DNA of 40,411 bases, taken from positions 1 through 40,411 of the forward strand of contig CACWZI010000079.1 of NCBI GenBank assembly GCA_902765305.1. The letters run 5' to 3'. This DNA comes from an uncultured Eubacteriales bacterium. GTDB lineage: Bacteria; Bacillota; Clostridia; Christensenellales; Aristaeellaceae. Positions within the stretch are counted from its first letter, which is position 1, and every line of letters begins with the position of its first letter. The position numbers and the translations under genes are program-made. The notes under the pieces were generated by a model. That model worked only from the letters and a program-made list of their open reading frames with translations. It had not been told where the DNA came from and did not search any database. This document shows positions 16,574 to 37,833 of this stretch, one piece after another.

Positions 16574-19165
16574 ATGCCACCCATCATGGTTCCCATACAG
16601 CGGGATCTGGACCTGGATGCGGACGTGGGGCAGTTTTCGATCTACACCCGAATGGAGGGCTTCGTGACCGTGGCGGCCCTGGCGCGGATCGCCCCGGGGC
16701 ACGGCGCGGCGACGGCGGACGGTGTGAAGCTCAGCCGCTGGGAGAGCGTGGACCTGAAGGGCGTCACGCTGCTGTTCTTGCCCCTTTCGGAGGTCATGCC
16801 GGACTACGGCCAGCGCTGCCGCGTGGCGCTGAGGGGCTTTCGCACCCCCGGCGGCCTGCCCTTTGCCCCCTGCGCCTTCACGGTGACCGTCCTGCCCCGC
16901 AGGCAGCCGGACCCGGCGTTTGCCCAGCACGACGCGGCGGCCCTGGAGGCGGCCCGGGAGGGCATGGTGCTGCTGCGCAACGAAAATGGCGCGCTGCCCC
17001 TGCCCGCGAACATCACGCTCAACTGTCTGGGCTCGGCCCAGCACTGGTGGCGCTGCTCGATGGCAGGGGCCTCGCGGATCAACCCCCGCCAGAGGCCCGG
17101 ATTTCACCAGGCCGTGGCGGAGCACAGCGGCTTCCGGGTGAATGCCGCGCTGTCGGACTTCTACCGCCGCGCCCGTGTGGACGAGCTGCCCGGCGAAGAC
17201 CTGCTGGCCGGGGCGCGGGTGAACGGCGGTCCGGCGCTGGTGTTCATCGCTCGGCAGTGGGGCGAGATGATGGACCTGCGGGATATCCCCGGGGAGTTTC
17301 GCCTGAGCGACGCTGAGCGGGCGCTGTTGCGCCTGGCCCGTGAAAGCTTCGACCGGGTGATCGTGATCCTGAACACCGGCGGCCCGATCGACATGGCCTG
17401 GCTCAGGGAAATCGACGTGGACGCGGTGCTGTTCACCGGCTACGCGGGCATGCTCTCGGCCCACGCGCTGGTGGAGCTGCTGGACGGACGGGTCAATCCC
17501 TCCGGCCACCTGCCGGATACCTGGCCCTGGCGCTTTTCGGACAATCCCGTAAGCCGGAACTTCCCCCAGCGGCCGGCGGACGCGCCTTACGTCCACGAGG
17601 ACGCCATCGGGGTGCGGGTGGTTTACGAAGAGGACATCTACATGGGCTACCGCTGGTTCGACAGCTTCGCCGTACCCGTGGCCTTCCCCTTCGGGCACGG
17701 GCTGAGCTATACCGACTTCGAGCTGACGCCCGCCGGCGTGCAGCGGCGGGGGGACGACGTGCGCGTCCGCGTATCGGTGCGCAACAGCGGCAAAAGGGCG
17801 GGCAAGGCCGTGGCCCAGCTGTACGTCGCGCCACCCAGGGGCATAATTGAAAAGCCCGACCATGTGCTGGTGGGCTTTGAGAAGACGGCCCTGCTGGCGC
17901 CGGGGGAGTCGCAGGCGCTGGAAATCCCCATGCGCCTGGAGGACGCGGCCTCCTTCGACGAGGCCCGGAGCGCATGGGTGCTGGAGGCGGGGGAATACGG
18001 CCTGTTTGTCGGCCAGAGCCTCGGCTGCCTCATCCCGGCGGGAAAGCTGGCGATCGAGGCGCGGACCCTGCGCCGGGTGGCGGCGGTGGCCCCGCCGATG
18101 GAGGACTTCAAGCGCCTGACCCGCGCCGACCCGACGGTGGACGGCTCGAAGTCCCACACCGTGCCCCTGGGCCAGCAGATCACCGTGCCCGCGCCGCGGG
18201 TGAAGGCGCGACGCGAAGATAGTCCTTTAGGGGATGGCGGGACGCCCACGAAGCGGAGGCAGGGGGAGCGCATCCTGTGGCAGGCGGTGCGTCAGGTCCC
18301 GTCGAAGCTGCCGGCCTTCGTGGGCCAGCTGTCGCTATTGGACCTGTGCCGGCTGAACGTCTGCGCCGGGTCACGGTGGCTGCCGGGGCAGGACGGCATG
18401 GCGGGGCACACGCCCCGAATGGAGGCCTACGGGCTGCCCGAATTCTGCGCTTCGGACGCCAACCCGGGGCTGAACCTGAAGCGGCGGAACGTGGGCTTTC
18501 CCGCCAGCAGCGTGATCGCGGCCACCTTCAATAGATCCATCGCCGAAGGGGTGGGCCGGGTCGTGGCGGCGGAATGCCCCGCCCACGGCGTGGACCTGGT
18601 GCTGGCCCCGGGCATGAACCTGCACCGCAGCCCGCTGTGCGGACGCCACCCGGAATACTTCTCCGAGGACCCCTTCCTGACCGGCGTGATGGCGGCCTGC
18701 CATGCCCGGGGACTGGAGGCAGGCGGCGTGGGCAGCTGCTACAAGCACCTGTTCTGCAACAACGCAGAGCTGGGCCGCATGGGCAGCCACAGCATTGTCT
18801 CCCGTCAGGCCCTGCGGGAGCTGTATTTCCGCGCCTTCGAGATCGCCTTCAGGCTGCACAGCCCCCGCTCGGTGATGACCAGCTACAACGCCCTGAACGG
18901 CATCTATCCCGGCGAAAGCCGGGCCCTGTTGGATAACCTGCTGCGCGGGGAGTGGGGCTTTACGGGCTTCGTGATGTCCGACTGGGGCAGCGTGCGCACC
19001 GTCAGCGCGGTGGAGATGGTCAACGCCGGCAACAGCTGGATCACCCCCGGCGGTCCCCTGTGGGTCCAGCGCATCTGGAATGCCGCCCGCCGGGGCGAGA
19101 TCACACGGGAGGCGCTGGAGGAGAATGTGATGTGGCTGCTACGGGGGATGGAGGGCAACTACTGA
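16574..19165 (+). CDS. GH3 glycoside hydrolase with permuted domain order
   Basis: 863 aa, no signal peptide. The order is reversed relative to most GH3 enzymes: after an N-terminal about 110-residue beta domain comes the GH3 C-type alpha/beta sandwich (about 115-390, ending FPFGHGLSYTDFELTP), then a fibronectin-III-like domain (about 395-520), a linker (about 530-565), and last the TIM-barrel catalytic domain (about 570-863). The nucleophile is D803 in MSDWGS. The same order is known in Ruminococcus albus and Butyrivibrio beta-glucosidases. Beta-glucosidase is likely but xylosidase or other specificity cannot be excluded. The linker residues about 546-563 are encoded by a repeat-core fragment. 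AGGAGG precedes ATG 16574. The final Tyr codon and stop come from repeat E2. Confidence 0.92.
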   Translation: MPPIMVPIQRDLDLDADVGQFSIYTRMEGFVTVAALARIAPGHGAATADGVKLSRWESVDLKGVTLLFLPLSEVMPDYGQRCRVALRGFRTPGGLPFAPCAFTVTVLPRRQPDPAFAQHDAAALEAAREGMVLLRNENGALPLPANITLNCLGSAQHWWRCSMAGASRINPRQRPGFHQAVAEHSGFRVNAALSDFYRRARVDELPGEDLLAGARVNGGPALVFIARQWGEMMDLRDIPGEFRLSDAERALLRLARESFDRVIVILNTGGPIDMAWLREIDVDAVLFTGYAGMLSAHALVELLDGRVNPSGHLPDTWPWRFSDNPVSRNFPQRPADAPYVHEDAIGVRVVYEEDIYMGYRWFDSFAVPVAFPFGHGLSYTDFELTPAGVQRRGDDVRVRVSVRNSGKRAGKAVAQLYVAPPRGIIEKPDHVLVGFEKTALLAPGESQALEIPMRLEDAASFDEARSAWVLEAGEYGLFVGQSLGCLIPAGKLAIEARTLRRVAAVAPPMEDFKRLTRADPTVDGSKSHTVPLGQQITVPAPRVKARREDSPLGDGGTPTKRRQGERILWQAVRQVPSKLPAFVGQLSLLDLCRLNVCAGSRWLPGQDGMAGHTPRMEAYGLPEFCASDANPGLNLKRRNVGFPASSVIAATFNRSIAEGVGRVVAAECPAHGVDLVLAPGMNLHRSPLCGRHPEYFSEDPFLTGVMAACHARGLEAGGVGSCYKHLFCNNAELGRMGSHSIVSRQALRELYFRAFEIAFRLHSPRSVMTSYNALNGIYPGESRALLDNLLRGEWGFTGFVMSDWGSVRTVSAVEMVNAGNSWITPGGPLWVQRIWNAARRGEITREALEENVMWLLRGMEGNY
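18208..18232 (+). repeat. Repeat-core fragment read in frame within GH3 gene
   Basis: 24 of 25 bases identical to 19517-19541 in repeat E2 and nearly identical to the complement of 25477-25501 in E4. Here it encodes part of the interdomain linker (RREDSPLG) and the reading frame avoids the TAG in the motif. Confidence 0.85.
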
Positions 19166-19619
19166 TTTGTCGCTCTGGCGACAAATCAGTAGTTAGGTTT
19201 TAGGTTTTAGGTTTTAGGTGTTAGGGAAGGTAGAAATCCTGACGGATTTCTTTTATTCAAAGGACCGAGAAACGTAGTAACTACTGCTGTTTCCTTTGAA
19301 TCAAACAAATCCCGTGGCCGAAGGCCTAGCGAAGCGTTAAGGAAATACCGCGCAATTAAGGTGGTCAGCTGGCGAGTGAATTTTTCGACAGATGCAATTG
19401 TAGATTTCGAAGGTTTACTGGCGGTAAATCGAGAAATCTGCAAGCAGCAGATGTCGGAAAAGGCACCGCCAGATGTGCCGCCGTATTGTGCGGTATTTCC
19501 TTTCCTTAAGGGATTTGCGACGCGAAGATAGCCCTTTAGGGCACCACCCCTAAAACCTAACCCCTAACCCCTAAAACCTGAATACTGATTTATCGAGCAA
19601 AGCTCGATAAATCAGTATT
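19157..19619. repeat. Repeat element E2 (a-left, b-right)
   Basis: The whole 454-bp gap between convergent GH3 and ABC-F genes. Left hairpin a: arm AACTACTGATTTGTCGC (19157-19173), loop TCTG, partner 19178-19194. Left heptamers AGGTTTT x3 plus variants (19195-19225). The core (19226-19545) holds hairpin-forming GAAATCC/GGATTTC-like and GGCC-gaa-GGCC segments, the conserved TTTGAATCAAACAAATCCC stretch, and GCCCTTTAGGGC. Right array (19548-19579) is CCTAAAA/CCTAACC. Right hairpin b: arm AATACTGATTTATCGAGC (19581-19598), loop AAA, partner 19602-19619. The left arm contains the GH3 stop codon and the right end touches the ABC-F stop. The core is interrupted by a 160-bp nested element. Confidence 0.88.
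19341..19500. repeat. 160-bp inverted-repeat element nested in E2
   Basis: Terminal inverted repeats GGAAATACCGCGCAAT (19341-19356) and ATTGTGCGGTATTTCC (19485-19500), one mismatch. Inner parts also pair imperfectly (CTGGCG..CGACAGATGC with GCAGATGTCGG..CGCCAG), so the whole unit can fold as one long hairpin. It splits a core that is continuous in E4 at the CGAAGCGTTAA / TTAAGGGATTTGCG position. No open frame of note. MITE-like. Confidence 0.7.
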
Positions 19620-21281
19620 TTACTGTCTCTTCATCTCCCTCAGCGCCTTGGCGAGGGCGTCGTACTCCTTGGCCAGTGCCTGGGGATTGTCGCCCTTTCG
19701 CGGCGCGGCCATTCTGCCGGCCAGGGCGGCCAGGCGCATCTCGAGGGCGGAGATTTGAAGCCGCACGGCTTCGGCGGCGCGGTCCCGGCTGGCATCGGCC
19801 TCCATCTCGTCGAGCGTTCCCTCGAACGCGGAGAGACGGCCCTTGTCGAAGGTCAGCACCCGGGTGGCGACGGCGCGGACGAAGGCGCGGTCGTGGCTGA
19901 CGAACAGCAGCGTGCCGCCGTAGCCCGCCAACAGCGCCTCGAGGGCCTGCATCGTGAACAGGTCCAGGTGGTTGGTGGGCTCGTCCAGTATAAGCAAGTT
20001 GGAATCGGAAAGCAGCAGCTTCGCCAGCGCGACCTTGGCCCGTTCGCCGCCGGAGAGCACCCGCACCGGCTTGAATACGCTGTCGCCCCGCAGGTTCAGC
20101 CGGGCCAGCACCGTCCGGGCCGTGGCTTCAGGGTGGGGTGAATCGGCGCGGGCGTTCTCCAGCGCGGTGTCGTCGAAGCGCAGCGCCTTTGCATGGTCCT
20201 GGTCGAAGACGCCGACCCGGGCCTCCGGGTTCAGCCGAACGGCGCCGGTGAAGCGGGTGCCGGGGGAGGGGCTGCCGGCCAGCGCCCGCAGCAGCGTGGT
20301 CTTGCCGCAGCCGTTTTCGCCCAGCAGCGCCGTGCGCGAACCCGTGGGCAATGTGAATTCCGATCCGGCCAGCAATGTCCGGCCGCCGGCTGTCAGCTGC
20401 CTGCAGCGCACGGCCAGGGCCGTCTTCGCCGCGATGGGATGGGCCACGCCCAGCGCCATGCGGATATCGGGCAGGTCCCGGGGCCGTTCCTTCCGCTCCA
20501 GCCGGGCCATGCGGCCCTCCAGCACCTTCTTTGCGTGGCTCTGGTGTAGCACTGCGTTGGTGTATTCGTGGGTGTGCAGCCGCGCCTCGCTGTTGCCCAT
20601 GCGCTTCGGGGCCTTTTTGACCGAGGCGGCCCACTCGGCCTTCTTCTGCATCGCTTCCCGCAGGCGCGCCTGCTCCGCGCGGTAACGGTCGTATTCGAAC
20701 TGCTGGCGCTCCCGCTTACGCGCCTGTTCGGCCTGCCAGTCGGCGTAGCCGCCGGGAAAATCCGTCAGACTGCCGTCCTCCAGATACAGCACCCGGTTGC
20801 ACAGCGCCTCCAGCAGCGCCCGGTCGTGGGAGACGAGCACCAGCGCGCCGGTGTGGGCCGCCAGGCGCTTTTGCAGGCGGGCGATGCCTGGGGCGTCCAG
20901 GTCGGTGGTGGGCTCGTCGGCCAGCAGCAGCGGCGCGTCCGTGGACAGCGCCCCCGCGATGCGCCGGCGGGTCCGCTCTCCGCCGGAAAGCCCCTCCCGT
21001 GGGTCGGGCGCGCGGAATTCCGAGGCGAGGCGGGCGCTGGCCTCAAGTCGGGCGTCCCCGGACTGTCGGATCAGTGTCGCCGGGGCATAGCGCCGCACCG
21101 TGCCGCCGTCCGGGGCCAGCTCCCCTGCGAGGATCGCCAGCAGCGTGGACTTCCCCGCGCCGTTTTCGCCCACCAACGCCACCCGCTCGCCGTCGTACAG
21201 GTGCAGCCGGTCGATATTCAGCACGACCTGTTCGCCGTAGGATTTTGAGATGTGATTCGCTTCCAATAAGATTCTGGACAT
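19620..21281 (-). CDS. ABC-F family ATPase, probable ribosome protection
   Basis: 553 aa, two fused ABC domains and no membrane segments. Walker [10 protein letters not shown] (38-46) and GENGCGKTT in the second half; signatures LSGGERTRRR and LSGGERAKVA; the interdomain linker is basic and helical (about 190-290, KRERQQFEYDRYRAEQARLREAMQKK..), the part that reaches into the ribosomal E site in ABC-F proteins. It could be an antibiotic-resistance type or a housekeeping translation factor; the attenuator-like leader favours the former. Start 21281 (MSRILLEANHISKSYG) has GGAAGGAG. The same frame is open further upstream but is inside the leader. Confidence 0.9.
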   Translation of the reverse strand: MSRILLEANHISKSYGEQVVLNIDRLHLYDGERVALVGENGAGKSTLLAILAGELAPDGGTVRRYAPATLIRQSGDARLEASARLASEFRAPDPREGLSGGERTRRRIAGALSTDAPLLLADEPTTDLDAPGIARLQKRLAAHTGALVLVSHDRALLEALCNRVLYLEDGSLTDFPGGYADWQAEQARKRERQQFEYDRYRAEQARLREAMQKKAEWAASVKKAPKRMGNSEARLHTHEYTNAVLHQSHAKKVLEGRMARLERKERPRDLPDIRMALGVAHPIAAKTALAVRCRQLTAGGRTLLAGSEFTLPTGSRTALLGENGCGKTTLLRALAGSPSPGTRFTGAVRLNPEARVGVFDQDHAKALRFDDTALENARADSPHPEATARTVLARLNLRGDSVFKPVRVLSGGERAKVALAKLLLSDSNLLILDEPTNHLDLFTMQALEALLAGYGGTLLFVSHDRAFVRAVATRVLTFDKGRLSAFEGTLDEMEADASRDRAAEAVRLQISALEMRLAALAGRMAAPRKGDNPQALAKEYDALAKALREMKRQ

Positions 21282-21282
21282 G

Positions 21283-21520
21283 AAAAACGCTCCTTCCCGC
21301 CGGGAAGGAGCGCAAAAAGCCGAACGGCAATGCCACCGCGAACGCCAGGGGCGTCCGGCCGTGAAAAAACGCAACCTCCACGCGGCGGCAAAATACACCC
21401 CTCTTCACAGAACAGGGGCCATTTTTCTCGCCGGATGTCAGTTGCGGATCTTCATCAGTCGTTGTATACCTGCCTTTCATCGGATGGGTGCATTATAGCA
21501 GACGGTGGGGGGATTGTCAA
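21283..21520 (-). promoter_or_regulatory. Promoter, structured leader and attenuator of ABC-F gene
   Basis: Minus strand promoter TTGACA (21520-21515), 17 bp, TATAAT (21497-21492); leader about 200 nt. It ends in a perfect 12-bp hairpin (arms 21288-21299 and 21301-21312) followed by five T, then C and the ABC-F ATG. The ribosome site GGAAGGAG is inside the hairpin's 3' arm, so both transcription past it and translation need it open. An ATG at 21480, only about 5 nt from the expected transcription start, opens a frame through the leader that could act as a sensing peptide. The design matches attenuators known for ABC-F resistance genes. Confidence 0.75.
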
Positions 21521-21554
21521 CCCCGGTTCTGCCGCCGGGACGGCAAACCCAAAG

Positions 21555-21929
21555 TCAATCAGGTTTCTGTTCCTTTCCCTTCAGGAATTCTCCAACCTTG
21601 CCGGTCAGGTTCTTTGCGCCGTCCACGATCTTCTCGTCGATGTCGGTCCTGTCCAGAAGCGCCTGCACCTTGCCGGGGATGCCCTTTACGGCCTCCACGA
21701 CCTTTTCGTCGACGTCGGTCTTGTCCAGTAGCGCCTGCACCTTGCCGGGGATGTCCTTCACGGCCTCCACGACCTTTTCGTCGACGTCGGTCTTGTCCAG
21801 CAGCGCCTGCACCTTGCCGGGGATGTCCTTCAGGGCCTCCGCAACCTTCTCGTCGACGTCGGTCTTGTCCAGGACCTCCTGCACCTTGCCCTTCACATTC
21901 TCAATCACTTTGTTCAGCTCTTCGTTCAT
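21555..21929 (-). CDS. Protein of four 24-residue amphipathic repeats
   Basis: 124 aa. After a 14-residue head come four repeats at 15-38, 39-62, 63-86 and 87-110, consensus KVQALLDKTDVDEKVVEAVK + DIPG, then KVGEFLKGKEQKPD. Repeats 2 and 3 differ at one residue and the 72-bp DNA units are nearly identical. Each is a charged amphipathic helix pair, reminiscent of apolipoprotein/late-embryogenesis-like or CsbD-like small proteins; no signal peptide and no named family recognised. AAGGAG precedes ATG 21929. It is monocistronic with its own strong promoter. Confidence 0.75.
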   Translation of the reverse strand: MNEELNKVIENVKGKVQEVLDKTDVDEKVAEALKDIPGKVQALLDKTDVDEKVVEAVKDIPGKVQALLDKTDVDEKVVEAVKGIPGKVQALLDRTDIDEKIVDGAKNLTGKVGEFLKGKEQKPD

Positions 21930-21979
21930 CTGATAAAACTCCTTTCACCTGCGCGGCGCCCACCGCGCCAACTGGCAAC

Positions 21980-22008
21980 ATTATACAGCAGTTAACCAAG
22001 TACGTCAA
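21980..22008 (-). promoter_or_regulatory. Promoter of the 24-residue-repeat protein
   Basis: TTGACG (22008-22003), 17 bp, TATAAT (21985-21980) on the minus strand. Confidence 0.75.
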
Positions 22009-22028
22009 GGAAATGGATGCAAGTGGCC

Positions 22029-22303
22029 AGGGCTCACGCATGAATGCTTGAGCCTGTCACACAAAATCCGAGGAAGCAGCGAGGTAAATACTGATTTGTC
22101 GAGCTATGCTCGATAAATCAGTATTCAGGTTTTAGGTTTTAGGTTTTAGGGGTGGTGCAAATCCCTTCGGGATTTGTTTGATTCAAAGGAAACGGCAGTA
22201 GTTACCTAAAACCTATAACCTAAAACCTAAATACTGATTTGTCGCAGCGCGACAAATCAGTATTTGAATGCGACTGTTCCGTCTGGCAATTCATGCGTGA
22301 GCC
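22029..22303. repeat. Repeat element E3 with outer flanks (b-left, a-right)
   Basis: Core unit 22087-22265. Left hairpin b: arm AATACTGATTTGTCGAGC (22087-22104), loop TAT, partner 22108-22125 with one G-T wobble, a hybrid of the a and b types. Left array AGGTTTT x3 (22126-22150), shortest core (22151-22204) with CAAATCCCTTCGGGATTTG and TTTGATTCAAAGGAAAC, right array CCTAAAA/CCTATAA (22205-22228), right hairpin a: arm AAATACTGATTTGTCGC (22229-22245), loop AGC, partner 22249-22265. Outside it, 22031-22054 is a nested 24-nt palindrome (GGCTCA..GCAT..ATGC..TGAGCC) and 22289-22303 is an inverted partial copy of it. It lies between two divergent promoters. Confidence 0.87.
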
Positions 22304-22325
22304 GTGCATTCCTCAATCCCCGCCC

Positions 22326-22355
22326 TTGACGCTGCCTGCCCGATGATGCTATAAT
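22326..22355 (+). promoter_or_regulatory. Promoter of the glycosyltransferase-prmA group
   Basis: TTGACG (22326-22331), 18 bp, TATAAT (22350-22355). The expected start near 22362 supports GTG 22396 as initiator. Confidence 0.75.
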
Positions 22356-22395
22356 AGACCGTACTTTGTGGAATCCCGACGGGAGGTGTCGACCG

Positions 22396-23700
22396 GTGGA
22401 CCTGGATACGATCGGCAGGTGGCTGGGCTGGGTGGTGATGGCCGGCTATGTGGTCCTGACCGCCACGGAGGTGCCCCGGTATTTTATTTCCGCCTTGAAG
22501 CCTGCGCCGGCGATCGACGCGCCCGCCGCCCGGCGCCTTGAAGGACTTGCTTCGCGGCGAAGGCTGATGGGCGAGGTGCTCGTCGCCTTCGCGCTCTCCC
22601 GTCTGCTGGTGGTGCTGGTGTGCGCGGTGGGCTACTGGATCACGGAAAAGAGCCTGTCGGGCTTTTTCCCGGCGCTTTGGGAAAACCTGTTCCCATGGGA
22701 CGCCCGCCACTACCTGGACATCATCGACAGCGGGTATGTCGCCGAGGGGGAGGCGCGGCTGTTCATCGTGTTCTTTCCTTTTTATCCGATGCTTGGCCGG
22801 TGCCTTACGCTGATGACGGGCATCTCCTCCACGGCGGCGGGCCTGATCGTGTCGAACGCGGCGCTGGTGGGCTGCGGGGCGGCCATGTACCGGCTGGCGG
22901 AGATCGACGGTGGCCCCACGCTGGGCCGGCGGGCCATGCTGCTTCTGATGTTCTGCCCGATGACCTATTTCTTCTCCATCACCTATTCGGAATCCGCATT
23001 TTTGCTGGTGACGCTGCTGGCGGTGCTGTTCGCCCGCAGGCGGCGCTTCTTCCTGGCGGTGCTGTTCGGGGCGCTGGCCTCCGGGGCGCGGCTGCTGGGC
23101 ATGGCCACGGCCATACCGATCTTCTGGGAGCTGCTGCGCGACTGCCGGGAGAAGCGCGGGGACACGGAAACCCCCGTTACCCCGGGGGAGTACGCCCGTT
23201 GGATCCTTGTGAGCGCGCTGAAGGTGCTGCCGGTCAGCCTCGGCTTCCTGGGCTACCTGAGCCTCAACTGGCACCTGTTCGGCAACGCGACCCAATTCAT
23301 GGTGTTCCAGCGCGAGCACTGGTACCAGGAATTCGGCCACCTGGGCAACACGTTCCAGTATTGCCTGTACAATTCGGTGATCTACGACGATCCCTTTTAC
23401 CAGCTGGGGGTCTGGCGGCCCCAGCTTTTGCTGCTGGTGGCCGTGCCGCTGCTGGTGCTCTTACGGAGGAAGCGGGCCAGGCCGGGGGACGTGGCCTATA
23501 CGCTGGTCTACCACTACGTCTCATTCGCGCCCACCTGGCTGCTCAGCGGGCCGCGCTACGCTGCCTGCAACTACGCGCTGTACCCGATGCTGGCGGACAT
23601 CCCGAAGCGCCGTCGGGGCTTTGCCGTCATGCTGGCGGCGGAATGCGCCCTGCTGGCCTACATGACCTGGATCGGGCTTTGGCTGGGGAAAGTTTATTGA
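22396..23700 (+). CDS. PIG-V-like integral membrane glycosyltransferase
   Basis: 434 aa with about 8-10 hydrophobic segments. The WDARHYLDI motif (101-109) in the first outer loop corresponds to the W-D-x-x-(W/H)-Y catalytic-type motif of GPI mannosyltransferase II (PIG-V, GT-C fold). PFYPMLGR and FFSITYSESAFLL are also characteristic. It probably transfers a sugar from a lipid-linked donor outside the membrane; donor and acceptor unknown. GTG 22396 follows GGGAGGTG; TTG 22366 lies at the transcription start and is rejected. Residues about 48-57 (LEGLASRRRL), in a basic cytoplasmic loop, are encoded by GAAGGACTTGCTTCGC (22540-22555), which also occurs in the HhH-like gene. prmA follows after 19 bases. 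Confidence 0.8.
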   Translation: MDLDTIGRWLGWVVMAGYVVLTATEVPRYFISALKPAPAIDAPAARRLEGLASRRRLMGEVLVAFALSRLLVVLVCAVGYWITEKSLSGFFPALWENLFPWDARHYLDIIDSGYVAEGEARLFIVFFPFYPMLGRCLTLMTGISSTAAGLIVSNAALVGCGAAMYRLAEIDGGPTLGRRAMLLLMFCPMTYFFSITYSESAFLLVTLLAVLFARRRRFFLAVLFGALASGARLLGMATAIPIFWELLRDCREKRGDTETPVTPGEYARWILVSALKVLPVSLGFLGYLSLNWHLFGNATQFMVFQREHWYQEFGHLGNTFQYCLYNSVIYDDPFYQLGVWRPQLLLLVAVPLLVLLRRKRARPGDVAYTLVYHYVSFAPTWLLSGPRYAACNYALYPMLADIPKRRRGFAVMLAAECALLAYMTWIGLWLGKVY

Positions 23701-23719
23701 CAACGAAAGGCATATGATT

Positions 23720-24664
23720 ATGGACTGGATGGAATATACAATACTGACGACCACCGAGGGCTCTGAGCTGATCTCCCAGGTGCTGGAGGACGCAGGCAGC
23801 ACCGGCACGATGATCGAGGACAAAAACGACGTGGCCGCGAACCAGCGCCCCGAGGGGCAGTGGGACATCATCGACGAGGCCATCGCCGAGCGCATCGGCG
23901 ACGACGTGAAGGTGACGGGCTATTTTGAGGTCGACGGCAGGCTGCCCGACCGCATCGCCTACATCGAGAGCGAGCTGCGCCGCCTGAAGGGCATGGACCT
24001 GGGCATGGACCTGGGCAAGCTGGAGACCCTGCGCCACGACGTGGCCGAGCAGGACTGGACCGAGAGCTGGAAGGCCGCCTTCAAGCCCTTCCGGCTGGGC
24101 AATCACATGGTCGTCCGTCCCAGCTGGGAGACGGTGGACCTCCGGCCGGGGGACCACGAGATCGAGATCGACCCGGGCATGGCCTTCGGCACAGGCTCCC
24201 ACGAGACCACGGGCATGTGCGTCGAGCTGGTGGAGAAGTATGTGAAGCCCGGCGACCGGGTGATCGACATCGGCACCGGCACCGGCATACTGGCCATCGC
24301 GGCGGCCCATATGGGGGCGAGACCCGTGCTGGCCACCGACCTGGACGCCATCGCCGTGCGCGTGGCGGCGGAGAACGCGCGGATCAACGGCTTCGGCGAC
24401 GTGATCGAGACGCGCTGCGGCGACCTGCTGGAGGTGGTGCAGGAGACCGCCGACGTGGTGATCGCCAACATCATCTCCGACGTCATCATCATGCTGGCCA
24501 AACCCGTGCGCCAGCGGATCGTCGACGGCGGCCTGTTCATCTGCTCCGGCATCTCCGCAGAGCGCCGCGACGACGTGCTCAGGGCCCTGGCCGAGGCCCG
24601 CTTCGAGGTGCTGGAAGCGCCGGTCAAGGGCGAGTGGTGCGCCATGGCGGCGAGGAAGAGATAA
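23720..24664 (+). CDS. prmA: Ribosomal protein L11 methyltransferase
   Basis: 314 aa. It trimethylates L11 using SAM. The N-terminal substrate domain starts MDWMEYTILTTTEGSELISQVLEDAG, as in PrmA. The C-terminal Rossmann methyltransferase has DIGTGTGILAIAAAHMG (motif I) and ANIISDVI in place of N-P-P-Y-like motif IV, also as in PrmA. ATG 23714 is in frame, but GAAAGG is only 3 bases from it and 9 from ATG 23720, which also matches the family N-terminus. rsmE starts 5 bases after the stop. Confidence 0.95.
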   Translation: MDWMEYTILTTTEGSELISQVLEDAGSTGTMIEDKNDVAANQRPEGQWDIIDEAIAERIGDDVKVTGYFEVDGRLPDRIAYIESELRRLKGMDLGMDLGKLETLRHDVAEQDWTESWKAAFKPFRLGNHMVVRPSWETVDLRPGDHEIEIDPGMAFGTGSHETTGMCVELVEKYVKPGDRVIDIGTGTGILAIAAAHMGARPVLATDLDAIAVRVAAENARINGFGDVIETRCGDLLEVVQETADVVIANIISDVIIMLAKPVRQRIVDGGLFICSGISAERRDDVLRALAEARFEVLEAPVKGEWCAMAARKR

Positions 24665-24669
24665 ATATC

Positions 24670-25398
24670 ATGCACAGCTTTTACATCGATTCCCCCATCG
24701 ACGGTGCGGCCATGCTTCCCCCGGAGGAGGCCAGGCACGCGCTGAAGGTGCTGCGCCTGCGCCCCGGGGACGCGGTCTGCGCCATGGACGGCGCGGGGCG
24801 GCGCTGGCGGGGGAAGATCGGCGGCATAGACGGCGGCAGCGTCCGGGTGAATCTGCTGGAGCAACTGCCGGACAACGAGGCCCCGGTGCGCCTGACCGTG
24901 TACGAGGGCCTGCCGAAGGCCGACAAGCTGGATTTCATCGCCCAGAAGCTGACGGAGCTGGGGGCGGCGGCGCTGGCGCCCGTGCGGATGGCGCGCTGTG
25001 TGGCGAAGCTGGACGCCAGGGACGGCGAAAAGCGCCGGGAGCGGCTGGAGAAGATCGCCCGGGAGGCCGCCAAGCAGTGCGGACGGGGCATGCCCCTGCG
25101 GGTTGCCGCGCCGATGGACTGGCGCAAAGCCCTTGAGGCGATGGCCGCCCACGACCTGCTGCTGATCCCCTGGGAGGCGGCCGAAGGCACGCGGCTGAAG
25201 GACATATTCACACTGAACCCCGACGCCCGGGACATCGGCATCGTCGTAGGCCCGGAGGGCGGCATCACTGCCGACGAGATCGACGATATGGCCGCCGCCG
25301 GGGGGCGGTGCGTCACCCTCGGCCCCCGCATATTGCGCACGGAGACCGCCGCCGTGGTCTCCGCCGCGCTGGTCATGCAGCTGTGGGGAGACGTGTGA
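24670..25398 (+). CDS. rsmE: 16S rRNA m3U1498 methyltransferase
   Basis: 242 aa SPOUT methyltransferase acting on helix 44 of 16S rRNA. The N-terminal PUA-like RNA domain has LPPEEARHALKVLRLRPGD. The trefoil-knot SAM site is IGIVVGPEGGIT and LGPRILRTETA at the C-terminus. There is no strong ribosome site; translation is probably coupled to prmA 5 bases upstream. The stop codon TGA (25396-25398) overlaps the left hairpin of repeat E4. Confidence 0.95.
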   Translation: MHSFYIDSPIDGAAMLPPEEARHALKVLRLRPGDAVCAMDGAGRRWRGKIGGIDGGSVRVNLLEQLPDNEAPVRLTVYEGLPKADKLDFIAQKLTELGAAALAPVRMARCVAKLDARDGEKRRERLEKIAREAAKQCGRGMPLRVAAPMDWRKALEAMAAHDLLLIPWEAAEGTRLKDIFTLNPDARDIGIVVGPEGGITADEIDDMAAAGGRCVTLGPRILRTETAAVVSAALVMQLWGDV

Positions 25399-25692
25399 AT
25401 TCTGATTTATCGAGCTTTGCTCGATAAATCAGAATTCAGGTTTCAGGTTTCAGGTTTTAGGTTTTAGGTGGAGGTGCCCTAAAGGGCTAGCTTCGCGTCG
25501 CAAATCCTTTTAACGCTTCGATAGGCCTTCGGCCACGGGATTTGTTTGATTAAAAGGAAACGACTGGGCTAACAACGATCGTTAATCATTTAGTCAAAGA
25601 AATCCGCAAGGATTTCCACATCCCCTAACACCTATAACCTAAAACCTAAAACCTCAAATTCAGATTTGTCGCCCTGCGACAAATCTGAATTT
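25397..25692. repeat. Repeat element E4 (b-left, a-right)
   Basis: Left hairpin b: arm GAATTCTGATTTATCGAGC (25397-25415), loop TTT, partner 25419-25437 (19-bp perfect). Left array AGGTTTC x2 then AGGTTTT x2 (25438-25469). Core 25470-25621 is the fullest uninterrupted copy: GCCCTAAAGGGC, the GCGACGCGAAG-type block, GGCC-ttc-GGCC, GGGATTTGTTTGATT, and GAAATCC/GGATTTC. Right array CCTATAA/CCTAAAA (25622-25655). Right hairpin a: arm AAATTCAGATTTGTCGC (25656-25672), loop CCT, partner 25676-25692. It fills the rsmE-mtaB gap, about 20 bases before the mtaB start, inside a gene order that is usually tight. Confidence 0.88.
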
Positions 25693-31104: not shown

Positions 31105-31151
31105 CCGTATCGTACATGGACGACCGTCCGACGACAAGGAGGGAGATATCA

Positions 31152-31844: not shown

Positions 31845-31858
31845 ACGAACGGTTCGAG

Positions 31859-31894: not shown

Positions 31895-31957
31895 AATGCT
31901 TATCGCAAGCGGTGAATGCCCTTCGCAAATTGTGAGAAGAAAAATTGTGAAAAACAG

Positions 31958-31986
31958 TAGACAACCTCGGATCATTGTGTTATAAT
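31958..31986 (+). promoter_or_regulatory. Promoter of the sugar ABC importer
   Basis: TAGACA (31958-31963), 17 bp, TATAAT (31981-31986). Just upstream is a direct repeat of AATTGTGA (31927-31951 region) that might bind a regulator. The about 140-nt 5' leader contains a TTGTGCG/CGCACAA hairpin (32027-32043). Confidence 0.65.
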
Positions 31987-32131
31987 ATTATGCGTTGGTT
32001 GATGTGCTGTAATTTTTGGAGCTTGCTTGTGCGGCACGCACAATCCGTTCCGCAGAACCGGCGCATCGGCCCGATGATCGGATGCAAGGCCGCATGGCCT
32101 GCACAATATAATCAAAGGAGTGTACCCGAGT

Positions 32132-33181
32132 ATGAAGAAGATTCTTGCATTGGTACTCTGCGCGATGCTGGCTCTGGGCTGCGTCGCGGCCCTGGCCGAA
32201 GGAGAACTGGTCGGCGTTTCCATGCCCACCAAGGACCTGCAGCGTTGGAATCAGGACGGCGCCTACATGGAAGAGAAGCTGAAGGAAGCCGGTTATGCGG
32301 TTGAGCTGCAGTTTGCCTCCAACGACGTTCCCACCCAGCTGAACCAGATCGAGACCATGATCGACAATGGCTGCCAGGTCGTTGTCATCGCCGCTATCGA
32401 GGGCTCCTCCCTGGGCACCGCCCTGGACAAGGCCGCCGAGAAGGGCGTCAAGGTCATCGCTTATGACCGCCTGCTGATGGACAACGGCAATGTTGACTAC
32501 TATGCCACCTTCGACAACTACAAGGTCGGCACCGTGCAGGGCACCTATGTGAAGGACGCTCTGGATCTGGACAACGCGGAAGGCCCGTTCGTGATGGAAA
32601 TCACCGCTGGCGATCCCGGCGACAACAATGCCCGCTACTTCTATCAGGGCGCCATCGACGTGCTGAAGCCCTACATGGACGCCGGCAAAATCACCGTGCC
32701 CTCCGGCCAGATCGAGTTCGACCAGGTTGCCACCCCCACCTGGAAGACCGACGTCGCCCAGAAGCGCGCTGAGGATATCCTGACCGCCAACTATGCCAAT
32801 GGCGAGAACATCGACGTGTGGCTGTGCTCCAACGATTCCACCGCTCTGGGCGTAACCAACGCGCTGGAGGCCAACTACGGCGGCGAGAACTGGCCCATCA
32901 TCACCGGTCAGGACTGCGACGTTGCCAACACCAAGAACATGATCGCCGGCAAGCAGAGCATGTCCGTGTTCAAGGACACCCGCACCCTGGCGGCTCAGGT
33001 CGTGAAGATGGTCGGCCAGATCCTGGCTGGCGAAGAGGTTGACGTGAACGACACCGAGACCTACGACAACAACGTGAAGGTTGTTCCCTCCTTCCTGTGC
33101 GATCCCGTGTTCGCGGACGCCAACAACTACAAGGAGATCCTGATCGACTCCGGCTACTACACCGAGGACGATCTGAAGTAA
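32132..33181 (+). CDS. chvE: ChvE-type monosaccharide-binding protein
   Basis: 349 aa periplasmic-binding-protein type I fold. The signal segment MKKILALVLCAMLALGCVAALA can be read as a signal peptidase I site (ALA/EG) or a weak lipobox (ALGC). The mature start GVSMPTKDLQRWNQDGAYMEEKL, then ASNDVPTQLNQIETMIDNG and AYDRLLM, are ChvE-like; these proteins bind aldoses such as glucose, galactose, xylose or arabinose. AAGGAG at 32115-32120. Less GC-extreme, highly expressed-looking codon use (many AAG, GTT, GCT). First gene of the importer operon. Confidence 0.92.
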   Translation: MKKILALVLCAMLALGCVAALAEGELVGVSMPTKDLQRWNQDGAYMEEKLKEAGYAVELQFASNDVPTQLNQIETMIDNGCQVVVIAAIEGSSLGTALDKAAEKGVKVIAYDRLLMDNGNVDYYATFDNYKVGTVQGTYVKDALDLDNAEGPFVMEITAGDPGDNNARYFYQGAIDVLKPYMDAGKITVPSGQIEFDQVATPTWKTDVAQKRAEDILTANYANGENIDVWLCSNDSTALGVTNALEANYGGENWPIITGQDCDVANTKNMIAGKQSMSVFKDTRTLAAQVVKMVGQILAGEEVDVNDTETYDNNVKVVPSFLCDPVFADANNYKEILIDSGYYTEDDLK

Positions 33182-33200
33182 TCCGGGCTTATGCTCATTG

Positions 33201-33231
33201 TGATGCAGGCGGGGCTCTCCCGCCTGCATCA
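33201..33231 (+). terminator. Intra-operon hairpin after chvE
   Basis: Perfect 13-bp stem TGATGCAGGCGGG (33201-33213) with 33219-33231, 5-base loop, weak T-run. It probably allows partial read-through and protects the chvE transcript, giving more binding protein than transporter. Confidence 0.7.
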
Positions 33232-33318
33232 TTTGGGCATATTCCGGGTTCCGCCGACAGGAAGGCACGATAGAACGACAGGTCTGCTCGCTGAACGAAG
33301 GTCATTCAGCAGCGTTGC

Positions 33319-33391
33319 GTACAGATCCTTCGCTTCGCTGGGATGACGGCTTGACGGCGTTGTCGTCCTGAGCGAAGCGAAGGATCTGTAC
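33319..33391. repeat. Long inverted repeat in chvE-gguA gap
   Basis: Perfect 21-bp arms at 33319-33339 and 33371-33391, containing GATCCTTCGCTTCGCT and its complement, separated by 31 bases. The flanks show the GGGATGAC / GTCGTCCTGAG continuation. It is a different family from E1-E5. The rest of the 322-bp gap (33182-33503) shows no gene; minus-strand open frames here only read through the repeat. Confidence 0.75.
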
Positions 33392-33503
33392 ACAGAGGCG
33401 ACATATCGTGTGCCGGCAGCGTGAAACCGCGGCGGGGCTGTGTCGGAATTGATCTGCGGCAGCTTTGGGTTTTCCCATTTGACTGGAAAGCAGGAGGAGA
33501 GCA

Positions 33504-35048
33504 ATGGCAAAGATACTGCTGGAAATGAAGAACATCACCAAGACCTTCCCCGGTGTGAAGGCCCTGGACAATGTCAACCTGCAGGTGGAGGAGGGCGAGA
33601 TTCACGCCCTGGTGGGTGAGAACGGCGCGGGCAAGTCCACGCTGATGAACGTGCTCAGCGGCATCTACCCCTACGGCACCTATGAGGGCGATATCGTCTA
33701 CAACGGACAGGTCTGCAAGTTTTCAAACATCAAGGATTCGGAAAAGCTGGGCATCGTCATCATCCACCAGGAGCTGGCGCTGGTGCCCGAGATGACCATC
33801 GGCGAGAACATGTACCTGGGCAACGAGCGCGGGAGCAAATTCGCCATCGACTGGAATACCACCTACGCCGAGGCCGACAAATACCTGAAGATGGTGGGCC
33901 TGCAGGAGAGCAGCAAGGTGCAGGTCAAGACCATCGGCACCGGCAAGCAGCAGCTGGTGGAAATCGCCAAGGCCCTGGCCAAGCAGGCCAAGCTGTTGAT
34001 CCTGGACGAGCCCACCTCCTCGCTGAACGAGGAGGATTCAAAGGCACTTCTGGACCTGATGCTGGGCTTCAAGAAGCAGGGCATGACGATGATCATCATT
34101 ACCCACAAGCTCAACGAGGTGGCCTACGTGGCGGACAAAATCACCGTCATCCGCGACGGCACCACCATCGAGACCATCGACAACCACGGCCCGGAGCCGG
34201 TCAGCGAGGAGCGCATCATCAAGGGCATGGTTGGCCGCGAGATGACCAACCGCTTCCCGCCGCGGCAGAACGTGAAGATCGGCGACATCATGATGGAGGT
34301 GGACCACTGGACGGTGCACCATCCGCTGTACCCCGAGCGCAAGGTGGTGGACGACGTGTCCATGTACGTGCGCAAGGGCGAGGTCGTGGGCATATACGGC
34401 CTGATGGGCGCGGGCCGCACCGAGCTGGCCATGTCCATCTTCGGCCAGAGCTACGGCGTGAACTTCTCCGGCGAGTTGAAGATCGACGGTAAGCCGGTAA
34501 AGATGAAGAAGAGCGTCACCGACGCCATCAAGCACAAGATCGCCTACGTCACCGAGGACCGCAAGGGCAACGGCCTGATCCTCAGCCAGTCCATCAAGGT
34601 CAACACCTCCCTGGCCAACCTGTCCAGCCTGGCCAGCATGGGCGTCATCGACCAGGACAAGGAATATGCCGTGGCCGAGGAATACCGTGACAAGCTGCGC
34701 ACCAAGACGCCCACGGTGGAGCAGCTGGTGGGCAACCTCTCCGGCGGCAACCAGCAGAAGGTGCTGCTGGCCAAGTGGATGTTCGCCGAGCCGGATATCA
34801 TGCTGCTGGACGAGCCCACCCGTGGCATCGATGTGGGCGCGAAGTACGAAATCTACTGTATCATCAACGACCTGGCGGCGGCAGGCAAATCCGTGGTTAT
34901 GATCTCCTCGGAGCTGCCGGAGGTGCTGGGCATGAGCGACCGCATCTACATCATGAACGAGGGTAAGATGGTCGGCGAGATGAAGGCGGAGGACGCCACC
35001 CAGGAGAACATCATGGCGCTGATCCTCCAGTCGGGAAGGGGTGCATGA
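33504..35048 (+). CDS. gguA: Sugar ABC importer ATPase (CUT2, GguA-like)
   Basis: 514 aa, two ABC domains in one chain as in MglA/RbsA/GguA. The first half has Walker [10 protein letters not shown] (38-46) and [23 protein letters not shown]. The second half has the degenerate [13 protein letters not shown] and signature [14 protein letters not shown], so one canonical and one degenerate site as usual. It powers uptake of the ChvE-bound sugar. AGGAGG before ATG 33504; stop overlaps the permease start (ATGA). Confidence 0.93.
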
Positions 35049-36238
35049 CGATGAGTGAACGCAAAATGAGCCTTGGCGCTTTTTTCCAGAAGTATACCAT
35101 GGTGATCGCGCTGGTGGTTGTGGTCGTTTTCTTCGCCATCGCCACTGGTGGCGGCTCACTGAAGCCGGGTAGCATCAACAACCTGATTTCCCAGAACGGC
35201 TATGTTTTCGTGCTGGCGGCCGGTATGCTCTGCTGCATACTGACCGGCGGCAACATCGACCTGTCTGTCGGCTCGGTGGTCTGCTTTACGGCCTCCATCG
35301 GCTGCGTCATGATGGACAGGGGCGCAAACATGTGGCTGGCGGTGCTGATCATGCTGGCCATTGGCCTGGCCATCGGTGTGTTCCAGGGCTTCTGGATCGC
35401 CAAGGTGCATGTGCCGGCCTTTATCGCCACACTGTCGGGCATGTACGCCTTCCGAGGCCTGTCCAATGTGGTACTGCAGGGCTACCGCGTCGACATCAGC
35501 AATGAGAATTTCCTGTTCCTCTTCGGCGGCGGCAGGGATTGCTACATTCCTGATTTTGTTCGCCAGTGGACGGGGTCGGAGGGCAAGCCCAACCTGACCT
35601 GCATGGCCATCGGCATCATCGCGATCGTGATCTACATCCTGATGACTGTCCGAAGGATTCACGTCCAGAAAAAGCTGAATCTGCACCAGTCTGTCCTCGG
35701 CCAAGTGGTCACCACGGCCGTCATTTCTGCGGTGATCCTGTTTGTGACCTGGCAAATGGCCAGCTTCAGGGGCCTGCCCACCGTGCTGATCTGGATCGCG
35801 CTGGTGCTGGGAATCTACCAGTACATCACCACCAAGACCGCCATGGGCCGCCATCTGTATGCGGTGGGCGGCAATGAGAAGGCCACGGCGCTGTCCGGCG
35901 TCAAGACCCGCAACGTATATTGGTTCGCCTATGCCAGCATTGGCCTGATGGCCGGCCTGGCCGGTATCCTAACGGCGGCTCGCGCCAAGGGCATTGACCC
36001 GACCTATGGCGAGGGCTATGAGATGGACGCCATCGCTTCCTGCTTCATCGGCGGCGCTTCCGCTTACGGCGGCATCGGCAAGGTGTCCGGCATGATCATT
36101 GGCGCGGTGCTGATGGGCGTCATCAACCAGGGCATGAACATGGTGGGCGTCGACTCCAACCTGCAGCGCGTGGTCAAGGGCTTGGTGCTGCTGGCGGCCG
36201 TCATCTTCGATGTCGTGTCCAAACGGCAGAAGCGATAG
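35045..36238 (+). CDS. gguB: Sugar ABC importer permease 1 (GguB-like)
   Basis: 397 aa, about 10 membrane helices. The CUT2 permease hallmark [22 protein letters not shown] and the ATPase-contact region [26 protein letters not shown] are present; [29 protein letters not shown] is the conserved end. ATG 35045 overlaps the gguA stop by four bases, hence coupled. A second paralogous permease follows after 19 bases. Confidence 0.92.
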
Positions 36239-36257
36239 GAAAGGAGGATGGCAATTC

Positions 36258-37457
36258 ATGGAGAATAAAGTGGTAAATCGTTCCAATATCAGGCAATCGA
36301 ATCCGGTTGCCATGTTGAAAAAGAATGCCATGCTCATTATCCTGGTGCTGGTGTACATCTTTTTCACGATCATGACCAAGGGGCGCATGTTTAAGTCGAC
36401 CAGCTTTGCTTCTCTGATCAACCAGAACGCTTACGTGTACATCCTTGGCTGCGGTATGCTGATGTGTATGCTGACCGGTGGCAACATCGATCTGTCCTGC
36501 GGCGCTTTCGTGTGCCTGCTGGGTGCGCTGGGCGGCATGATGATGGTGGTCTGGAAGTGGGGAACCGCCTTGTCTCTGGTGGCCATGCTGGCCGTCGGCA
36601 TCATCTACGGCTGCAGTCTTGGCGCGCTGATCGCATATGTGATGGTTCCGCCGTGGATCGCGACCCTGGCAGGCTATCTGGCTTTCCGGGGCTTGGGCAC
36701 GTCCATACTGGGTGTCTCCTCCACGAACTCCATTTCGTTCAAGGACAGCCCGGATTTCCTGAGAATCTTCTCCGGAACGATGTTCAAGACGCCGGAGGGC
36801 CAGTTGAATATGCCCTGCCTGATCGTGGGTATCGTCGCCGCAGCGCTGGTGGTGCTGATGGTTTTCAAGAATCGCGCGACGCGGCTGAGGAAGGGGTATG
36901 AGGTGGATGCTCTGGAGATGGATGCAGCCAAGAGCATTCTGGGCGCTTTCGTCATCCTGCTGGTTATGTACAAGCTGGCGATGGCTGGCGGCATTCCAAC
37001 CGTGCTGGTTTGGGTGGCGGCGGTTGTGTTGATTTATGCCTTCATTACCGGCAAGACCACCATAGGCCGCCACTTCTACGTGGTGGGCGGCAACATCGAG
37101 GCCGCGCGTCTGTCCGGCGTGAATACCAAGCGTATCATGTTCCTGGCTTATCTGAACATGGCGATACTGACCTCGATCTCCGCCATGACGGTCATCTCCC
37201 GCTTTACTGCGGCCAATGCCGACGCGGGCAAGAATTTTGAGATGGATGCCATCTCCGCCTGCGTGGTGGGCGGCGTCTCCGCCAGCGGCGGCTCGGGCAC
37301 CGTACTGGGCATGGTCATCGGCGCCACGCTGATCGGCGTGATCAACCTGGGCATGTTCCAGATCAACCTGGATGCCAACTATCAGAGGGTCGTCAAGGGC
37401 TTCGTGCTGCTGGCCGCCGTGGTATTCGACATCCTGTCGAAGAAGCGGGAAAGGTGA
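36258..37457 (+). CDS. Sugar ABC importer permease 2, paralogue
   Basis: 399 aa, same topology and motifs as the preceding permease ([77 protein letters not shown]). The two align end to end but are clearly diverged. CUT2 importers normally use a homodimer of one permease, so this pair suggests a heterodimer or two alternative transporters sharing one ATPase. AAGGAGG at 36241-36247 decides ATG 36258 over upstream in-frame codons. The last gene of the operon. Confidence 0.92.
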   Translation: MENKVVNRSNIRQSNPVAMLKKNAMLIILVLVYIFFTIMTKGRMFKSTSFASLINQNAYVYILGCGMLMCMLTGGNIDLSCGAFVCLLGALGGMMMVVWKWGTALSLVAMLAVGIIYGCSLGALIAYVMVPPWIATLAGYLAFRGLGTSILGVSSTNSISFKDSPDFLRIFSGTMFKTPEGQLNMPCLIVGIVAAALVVLMVFKNRATRLRKGYEVDALEMDAAKSILGAFVILLVMYKLAMAGGIPTVLVWVAAVVLIYAFITGKTTIGRHFYVVGGNIEAARLSGVNTKRIMFLAYLNMAILTSISAMTVISRFTAANADAGKNFEMDAISACVVGGVSASGGSGTVLGMVIGATLIGVINLGMFQINLDANYQRVVKGFVLLAAVVFDILSKKRER

Positions 37458-37464
37458 TAGAAAT

Positions 37465-37510
37465 GCACAAAGAGGTCGCCGGCTTTTGAACCCGGCGACT
37501 TTCTTTGTGC
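37465..37510 (+). terminator. Terminator of the sugar importer operon
   Basis: GCACAAAG..GTCGCCGG (37465-37482) pairs with CCGGCGAC..CTTTGTGC (37492-37510), a long two-part stem with an internal loop. Confidence 0.75.
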
Positions 37511-37516
37511 GTGAAT

Positions 37517-37833
37517 GAACAGTCGGGTAAATACTGATTTGTCGCGCTGCGACAAATCAGTATTTGAGTGGCTAGTGGCTAGTGATTAGTGGCTAGTGAA
37601 GGATGAAATCCTCACGGATTTCTTTTGATTTAATAGACCTATAAACGTTGAAACCCCTATCGTTCCCCTTGAATCAAACAAATCCTGAAGGGATTTGCAC
37701 CACCACTAACCACTAGCCACTAACCACTAATCACTCAATTCTGATTTATCGAGCCCAGCTCGATAAATCAGAATTTATCGCACTGCATCTTCGGATTATG
37801 TGTGACAGGCTCAAGCATTCATGCGTGAGCCCT
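37517..37833. repeat. Repeat element E5 with outer flanks (a-left, b-right)
   Basis: Unit 37529-37775. Left hairpin a: arm AAATACTGATTTGTCGC (37529-37545), loop GCT, partner 37549-37565. The left array (37567-37598) is AGTGGCT AGTGGCT AGTGATT AGTGGCT AGTG, a different heptamer from E1-E4. The core (37599-37702) keeps GAAATCC/GGATTTC, CTTGAATCAAACAAATCC and GGGATTTGCACCACC. The right array (37704-37735) is CACTAAC/CACTAGC/CACTAAT, the complement-type of the left one. Right hairpin b: arm AATTCTGATTTATCGAGC (37737-37754), loop CCA, partner 37758-37775. The right flank 37776-37833 is an inverted copy of the left flank of E3 (first 34 bases identical), including the GGCTCA..TGAGCC palindrome (37808-37831). 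CGACTGTTC outside hairpin a is also shared with E3. Confidence 0.87.

Follow-up and report, generated by a model that had tools for sequence, protein, structure and literature searches.

What are the hairpin-bounded repeats that lie between the genes of this contig, and how might they have spread? The window, by which we mean the whole stretch of DNA analysed (40,411 nucleotides), is one entire contig (C79) of the 3.88-Mb genome of an uncultured Clostridia bacterium (G000), which holds well over 100 copies of a small non-coding element. A preliminary description had listed four whole copies (E2–E5) and one half copy (E1) of a single design: hairpin, heptamer array, conserved core, inverted heptamer array, second hairpin. 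The positions of E2–E5 were confirmed, with the start of E4 moved from 25397 to 25396:

1..171, minus strand: E1, element truncated by the contig end; a-hairpin 133-171, heptamer array 73-132
1-72, minus strand: second core type of E1, CCTTCCCC..GGGGAAGG
19157..19619, plus strand: E2, a-to-b; a-hairpin 19157-19194, b-hairpin 19581-19619
19233..19250, plus strand: E2 core hairpin H1 (GAAATCC..GGATTTC)
19337..19502, strand not given: distinct 166-bp repeat inside the E2 H3 region, ends GGAAATACCGC / GCGGTATTTCC
22087..22265, minus strand: E3, deletion form without H1; b-hairpin 22087-22125, a-hairpin 22229-22265
25396..25692, minus strand: E4; b-hairpin 25396-25438, a-hairpin 25656-25692
25599..25616, minus strand: E4 core hairpin H1
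37529..37775, plus strand: E5, cleanest complete copy; a-hairpin 37529-37565, b-hairpin 37737-37775
~37566-37600 and ~37700-37736, plus strand: left and right arrays of E5
37605..37622, plus strand: E5 core hairpin H1
37623..37678, plus strand: E5 core stem-loop H2 (TTTTGATTTAA .. TTGAATCAAA), loop variable
37679..37697, plus strand: E5 core hairpin H3 (CAAATCC..GGATTTG)

Each of E2, E3, E4 and E5 carries inverted 7-nt arrays and, as had been proposed, one a-type and one b-type hairpin; the claim that the copies encode no protein also holds, with no ORF of at least 80 aa inside any of them. The conserved core blocks survive only in part: GTGGCCGAAGGCCTA and GCGACGCGAAG..GCCCTTTAGGGC occur in E2 and E4 only and are absent from E3 and E5, and the GAAATCC..GGATTTC hairpin is missing from E3. 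Nor is E1 a half copy of the common core, its bases 1-72 being of another core type (AAAGCCTTCCCC..GGGGAAGG) at the contig end where the window begins. E2 owes its extra length to the foreign 166-bp repeat nested in its core, which has 80–100% matches in genus genomes without an a-hairpin (e.g. G015, G009, G007, G023 and, over 97 bp, G004).

Exact a-hairpins (n = 143) and b-hairpins (n = 98) recur throughout G000 while reversed-pattern controls give 0; the repeat elements are real and far beyond chance, and the earlier view that two distinct palindromes bound a polar composite unit extends beyond this contig. An a-hairpin is joined with a b-hairpin in 33 of 33 pairs spaced 60–420 bp (746 kb of G000 sampled) and in 23 of 25 pairs from 31 stretches of RUG14340/RUG340; one G019 copy (L192) has, by eye, a-like hairpins on both ends, and 1 of 32 analysed hairpin pairs (L119 4102-4297) is a probable mis-pairing by the script. 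Among 28 genus genomes, exact a-hairpins number 143 in G000, 111 in G008, 80 in G025 and 14 in G017, one in each of three genomes and none in 21; they are absent from all 172 genomes sampled outside the genus. These end hairpins, or caps, consist of AAATWCTGATTTRTCG plus a mini-hairpin and are carried by the unit in four species. They form long-range terminal inverted repeats in some elements and perfect local hairpins in many G000 copies, and over 97 hairpins their stem positions show paired changes (AT 72/TA 18 and AT 68/CG 16). One end pattern of the terminal-inverted-repeat type occurs 71 times in G025, 41 in G008, 5 in G000, 4 in G017 and never in the 24 other genomes, and at 14 of 20 places examined a whole small element lies between two such caps. 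Since caps, as true terminal inverted repeats, flank several different interiors (~110–350 bp), they look like the recognised ends. A solo hairpin with A- and T-tracts lies at L144 986-1026.

Beneath the caps lies a more widespread unit. The basic unit is a heptamer array, an H1 hairpin, an H2 stem-loop (with a variable loop, and sometimes absent), an H3 hairpin and an inverted heptamer array, and the caps are add-ons to this deeper unit; the common design first described fits E2–E5 and fails across the genus, where the hairpins are no fixed part. It had been suggested earlier that related Clostridia be searched for copies: the array–core–inverted array unit finds matches in all but one of the 28 genus genomes (27 of 28) and, with a patchy distribution, in the rest of the class, and heptamer-rewritten cousins occur in scattered related bacteria. 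Core-match counts are rough, as an element can score on each strand and the number of candidates scored per genome was limited. The elements themselves served to build R1 and R2, the R2 seed mixing both strands: R1 matches E5 at 37595-37710 with 122.5 bits, E5 itself being in the seed, and R2 under strict filters matched its own genome alone in a phylum sample of 398 genomes. An order-level match (G370, L251) was counted as false, arrays being absent by eye.

Identity at lag 7 is 0.73, versus 0.26–0.28 at lags 4–6 and 8–10, and the heptamer word varies by species while its length stays 7 nt and both arms of one element match: over 20 elements the arm match is 20.65 within and 9.36 between elements (0 of 10,000 permutations). 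A single strand forms a branched stem, with z from -15.6 to -16.4; for E3 (-15.7) and E5 (-16.4), folded as DNA, 0 of 200 shuffles fold as well. Over 20 cores, 94.8% of cells are paired versus 29–65% in slid controls, and two-sided changes affect 3 of the 4 pairs in the arrays and 2 of the 7 in H3; none was seen in H1 or H2, the latter just 88% paired, and covariation by further pair types was no better than in shuffles (266/500). Stem swaps, e.g. GAAAAGCC..GGCTTTTC, are found in family and class relatives. Counter-cases among class relatives are L302, with unlike heptamers on its arms, and L298, L300, L301 and L310, with one arm short or degenerate.

Empty sites had been suggested as a further check, and element-free sites do exist in sister species. 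By eye, 7 of the 28 genomes have an element with two arms at the E4 site, capped in G000 and uncapped in G002, G013, G014, G015, G018 and G020; G008, G022 and G027 have one-armed arrays there, and the remaining genomes have remnants or nothing, G025 with just one flank matched. No transposition event was observed, and with flanks only ~71–89% identical between these species the differences may come from loss as readily as from gain. A cap or its remnant is present at the E2 site in each of G000, G008, G025 and G017, a pattern that repeated insertion and old shared insertions with later homogenisation fit equally well.

The copies are intergenic, often against stop codons, and a cap can supply a gene's TGA. 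The stop of ORF 16574-19165 (TGA 19163-19165) lies within the E2 a-hairpin, the E2 b-hairpin adjoins the stop of ORF 19620-21398 on the minus strand, and E4 starts with the TGA stop (25396-25398) of ORF 24217-25398. With longest-ORF guesses as gene calls for all location and orientation counts, no capped element among those examined fell within an ORF (49 of them with a neighbour on either side), distances of 18 bp or less were found on 27 of 58 stop sides versus 5 of 40 start sides, and 12 of 31 capped pairs, versus 100 of 453 gaps, fell between convergent genes. A wider set of 77 places, drawn from 192 rows on the best strand with weaker or cut places left out, gave 25 convergent pairs among 56 classified; of the 77, crude ORF calls enclosed 4, a further 10 lay at the edge of a locus and 7 were far from genes. 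A putative bidirectional brake on transcription at gene ends is plausible.

BIMEs have two palindrome kinds within one unit, as do the present elements, and the STRR of cyanobacteria are heptanucleotide repeats, 7-nt units in intergenic DNA. REPINs and BIMEs with their RAYTs, in the available excerpts of two papers (PMC3116915, PMC3733652), are likewise intergenic, high-copy, gene-free inverted doublets that fold as one strand, whereas 7-nt inverted arrays and a branched core are not described in those excerpts; moreover, RAYTs here mostly lie beside another repeat, and the arm sequence of the present elements changes from one species to the next. BOX elements of Streptococcus pneumoniae, as excerpted in PMC3049150, are also modular and folded, with internal repeats in variable number; a BOX repeat encodes the stop codon of 36 annotated genes, and BOX terminal inverted repeats were likened to those of ISSpn2. 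That excerpt describes no inverted 7-nt arrays, a distinction of description and not of sequence. A Porphyromonas gingivalis MITE containing a minisatellite resembles our elements, by description only, in having tandem repeats in a MITE (PMC4596501), and the TAACTGA repeats of Beggiatoaceae are intergenic 7-nt units (PMC4679880); unlike ours, in the partial accounts at hand, both these and STRR are direct repeats and not inverted pairs around a folded core. At gathering score, Rfam found only Cobalamin (RF00174) in the whole window, outside the elements; when E5 and four loci were scanned permissively, all matches stayed below the gathering score, the best to a microRNA model (E 1.1e-4, 30.8 of 200 bits), which we took as chance. 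The E5 query had no match in phage or plasmid records, and an origin there was set aside. The label "undescribed" stands only in this sense, together with our recognising no named family in the titles and abstract openings that literature searches on repeats listed.

Which enzyme, if any, moves these elements? They could, as the preliminary description hinted, be REPINs or BIMEs moved by RAYT (Y1) transposases that the genus itself encodes, a reading we consider quite unlikely. It would account for an inverted palindrome pair with hairpin-bearing ends, foldable as a single strand, intergenic, at high copy number and without target duplication, and of the 28 genus genomes 16 have Y1_Tnp matches, among them the four hairpin-rich genomes with at least two apiece; a cap lies ~180 bp downstream of one G008 Y1 gene. 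REP palindromes bear a GTAG (or CGTC) tetranucleotide at one end; the outer-flank consensus of 32 pairs shows no GTAG, a consensus beside which other tags may exist. Against RAYTs, 22 of the 30 Y1 loci read (from 45 matches listed, those left out including C53, one of three in G000) carry 2–7 copies of a different repeat, GGGAC(A)GGTTC (background, 17 in 746 kb), and 1 of 30 carries the cap motif. No Y1 clade is common to the four cap-rich genomes in a tree of 26 rows, three fragments left out, in which L094/L097 join G000 and G025 while L091/L093 join G017 and G008. Two core-rich genomes, G001 with 131 core matches (counting both strands) and G004 with 101, lack any Y1_Tnp match. The check proposed earlier, a Y1/RAYT-type gene whose presence tracks copy number, thus fails, and RAYT mobilisation is not supported. 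A second possibility is that they are plain MITEs derived from a DDE insertion sequence that has the cap as its terminal inverted repeat. The genuine terminal inverted repeats that enclose several interiors, a trait of capped elements only, agree with this; we judge it unlikely, as 46 elements show no target-site duplication (none exact in the best 12 rows of a symmetric scan; the best of a free-offset scan, 12 of 46 4-mers, lies in the cap itself, AATT), no insertion sequence with cap ends appears in 746 kb of G000 and 31 stretches up to 8 kb, and uncapped elements are equally abundant in other species. In the sequence read, inspection by eye showed no transposase enclosed by two caps or by two inverted arrays. 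Among 51 inverted-array pairs the spacing between arrays exceeds 170 bp in nine; the three long ones, at 1.5–4.8 kb, were rejected as autonomous copies, their ORFs looking, by eye, like host genes. Facing caps 1.3 kb apart (L067 4947-6233) were also rejected: a short element there ends in a degenerate cap, and what remains of the interval is an ORF made up of repeated units with no transposase look.

Alternatively, the elements might be dispersed and selectively kept for the host as bidirectional terminators or mRNA 3'-end protectors, as their share of convergent pairs, their stop-hugging, their strong folds and the solo hairpin with its A-/T-tracts would suggest. This too seems improbable to us: whether an orthologous site is occupied varies erratically, caps are missing in most sister species, and insertion best tolerated past stop codons gives the same pattern. 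Orientation relative to gene direction (14 versus 7) is not decisive, and an RNA-level function argued from orientation bias was not retained. An assembly or binning artefact, to which the many copies at contig ends and the two capped G019 copies on one contig might point, is scarcely credible given mid-contig copies between conserved genes in several assemblies and the same architecture in two-contig assemblies of the relatives G817 and G234.

We favour a reading in which these are probably non-autonomous palindromic mobile elements, with a MITE/REPIN/BOX-like way of working and established membership in none of these families. Both arrays would zip into a long stem on one DNA or RNA strand, the core hairpins branching at its tip; the folded strand would be moved in trans by some enzyme that makes no target duplication, and template switching within the palindrome during copying may keep the arms complementary. 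Such copying errors would explain both the concerted rewriting of 7-nt blocks and the perfect cap hairpins, and selection for pairing could yield the same covariation. More tentatively, the elements may belong to a Clostridia-wide, unnamed superfamily of "heptad palindromes", mobile and single-strand-folding, defined by geometry over sequence, in which the 7-nt period and arm complementarity persist, the word is replaced per species and the end caps, recruited or evolved, are interchangeable.

If this is true, what recurs between the genes of some Clostridia genomes is a family of mobile elements, one that would have stayed unnamed since it keeps its shape but has its sequence rewritten from species to species. 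The elements would mark break points of draft assemblies in these genomes, would offer a natural test of template switching keeping palindrome arms alike, and would raise the question of why the period is always seven.

The whole copies E2-E5, read directly, and the partial copy E1, at the contig end, matched the preliminary description in their hairpins, heptamer arrays and coordinates. The window is a complete contig (C79) of the source genome, G000, an assembly of 177 contigs and 3.88 Mb that is 93% complete. Genome-wide counting of exact end hairpins in G000 gave 143 of the a type and 98 of the b type, and the backwards-read hairpin pattern, our control for both counts, gave 0 matches. Within 746,427 bases (the window and 40 stretches), a loose finder listed 105 hairpins, including a few false ones, along with 32 a-b pairs of 131-463 bp; a separate spacing-based count found both types in 33 of 33 hairpin pairs.

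Folded as a single DNA strand, E5 forms an a-hairpin, then a long heptamer-array stem, then a b-hairpin (z = -16.4), the stem enclosing three core parts: H1 (GAAATCC..GGATTTC), the H2 stem-loop (TTTGATT..AATCAAA) and H3 (CAAATCC..GGATTTG). The z-score was -15.7 for E3 and -15.6 for E5 folded as RNA. Over 20 cores, pairing held in 94.8% of cells, as compared to 29-65% with the partners slid; two-sided changes occurred at 3 of 4 pairs of the array helix and 2 of 7 pairs of H3, and at none in H1 or H2. E2 shares the plan of E4 once its nested 166-bp insert is disregarded. This insert (window 19337-19502; ends GGAAATACCGC / GCGGTATTTCC) is a different, separate, MITE-like repeat found genus-wide in genomes with and without hairpins, and also in the fetched stretches L194, L195, L197 and L199; TTAAGG adjoins several copies.

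The hairpins are caps, and the core is a separate part. Among the 28 genus genomes, exact a-hairpins were abundant in G000, G008 and G025, numbered 14 in G017, and were 1 or 0 elsewhere. Scanning named-species genomes yielded 31 stretches: 29 lie in RUG14340 and 2 in RUG340, and each genome bears the label uncultured Clostridiales. RUG14340 is judged to be G008, and RUG340, from equal hairpin positions in C361 and L048, to be G017. In other species the same core occurs with heptamer arrays but without hairpins; the heptamer of G001 is (GGAGAAT)n, that of G013, G018 and G002 is (GGAATTA/GGAATGA)n, that of G003 is (GTGTGGA)-like, and there are others. A covariance model of the core matched 27 of the 28 genus genomes. 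In the larger samples, searched under strict filters, matches came from 20 genomes of the family (n = 200; 11 of the genus, 9 from other genera), 7 of the order (n = 396; G444 alone convincing outside the family, and a match in G370 that looks false), 8 of the class besides the source genome (n = 391), and the source genome alone in the phylum (n = 398). The ten class loci read each had 7-nt arrays flanking one or both sides; one arm was short or degenerate in L298, L300, L301 and L310, and L302 had different heptamers on its two arms.

The caps can also be read as element ends. By eye, four G018 elements (L254-L257) have as cap a degenerate long-range terminal inverted repeat, not a local hairpin; in local-hairpin caps, the outer stem bases vary pairwise. 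The same cap flanks other non-coding interiors in G000, G008 and G025. One TIR-type end pattern occurred 71 times in G025, 41 in G008, 5 in G000, 4 in G017 and 0 in the 24 others, and a whole element lay between two caps at 14 of 20 places fetched.

At the E2 and E4 sites of G025 (L102, L200), two caps give way after ~20 bases to another repeat, close to contig ends. The interior of this repeat looks like the element that accounts for most of the 71 TIR-type ends of G025, and many of those ends fall at contig termini. A solo a-hairpin directly after a stop codon (L144 986-1026), its arms ending in A- and T-tracts, looks like a bidirectional terminator derived from a cap. A GGCTCAAGCATTCATGCGTGAGCC hairpin is common to E3 and E5 and adjoins them. 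Just outside some caps, and within the H2 loops of elements in G001, stands a further repeat, GTAACTGTTCAGTC..GACTGAACAGTTAC; the locations noted for this repeat and the hairpin are:

window, about 22030-22053
window, about 22266-22310
window, about 37505-37527
window, about 37800-37833
fetched stretches L185-L188, L289 and L293

No capped element examined lay inside an ORF. Flanking the 49 with both neighbours called, stop codons were within 18 bp in 27 of 58 cases and starts in 5 of 40; convergent gaps held 12 of 31 capped pairs, versus 100 of 453 gaps. A TGA inside the E2 cap terminates the upstream gene, and at the E2 site in G008, G025 and G017 a TGA at the same place is, by eye, supplied by the cap or a remnant. 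BOX elements are reported to have a comparable relation to stop codons (PMC3049150). None of 46 elements examined showed a target duplication. Just downstream of E5 lies a Cobalamin riboswitch (window 37879-38062; RF00174, 113.6 bits), and a 72-bp tandem repeat of 3.7 copies (21622-21890) lies inside ORF 21555-21929(-).

The arrays are themselves regular, with a lag-7 identity of 0.73 versus 0.26-0.28 at neighbouring lags (20 elements, at least 16 genomes). Left and right arms matched at 20.65 within an element versus 9.36 between elements, 0 of 10,000 permutations being as good (20 elements). The contrast was smaller within G000, where one heptamer type is common to most elements (20.75 versus 18.32, 28 of 32 pairs used), and was still beyond 10,000 permutations. 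Heptads are rewritten in concert, both arms of an element together.

Mobilisation by RAYT genes, as hinted at in the preliminary description, is disfavoured as far as it is testable by loci, clades and core-rich genomes. Y1_Tnp matches occurred in 16 of the 28 genus genomes and were absent from core-rich G001 and G004; no Y1 clade was common to the cap-rich genomes; and the 30 Y1 loci read, of 45 matches listed and with two of the three in G000 among them, had GGGAC(A)GGTTC repeats at 22 and a cap at 1. Around the RAYT-like genes of the genus (L075-L100), repeats of the GGGGACGGTTCC or GGGGACAGGTTCC type flank 22 of 30 loci read, with 2-7 copies at each, which is likely a separate RAYT-repeat pairing. 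The DNA read for autonomous or paired-cap copies held no other candidate mobiliser. The literature consulted, mostly titles and abstract openings, contained no description of a clostridial hairpin core set between inverted 7-nt arrays, and its silence is therefore weak evidence of novelty. We favour, with moderate confidence, the reading that the E1-E5 family are mobile elements, for which we infer transposition and template switching.
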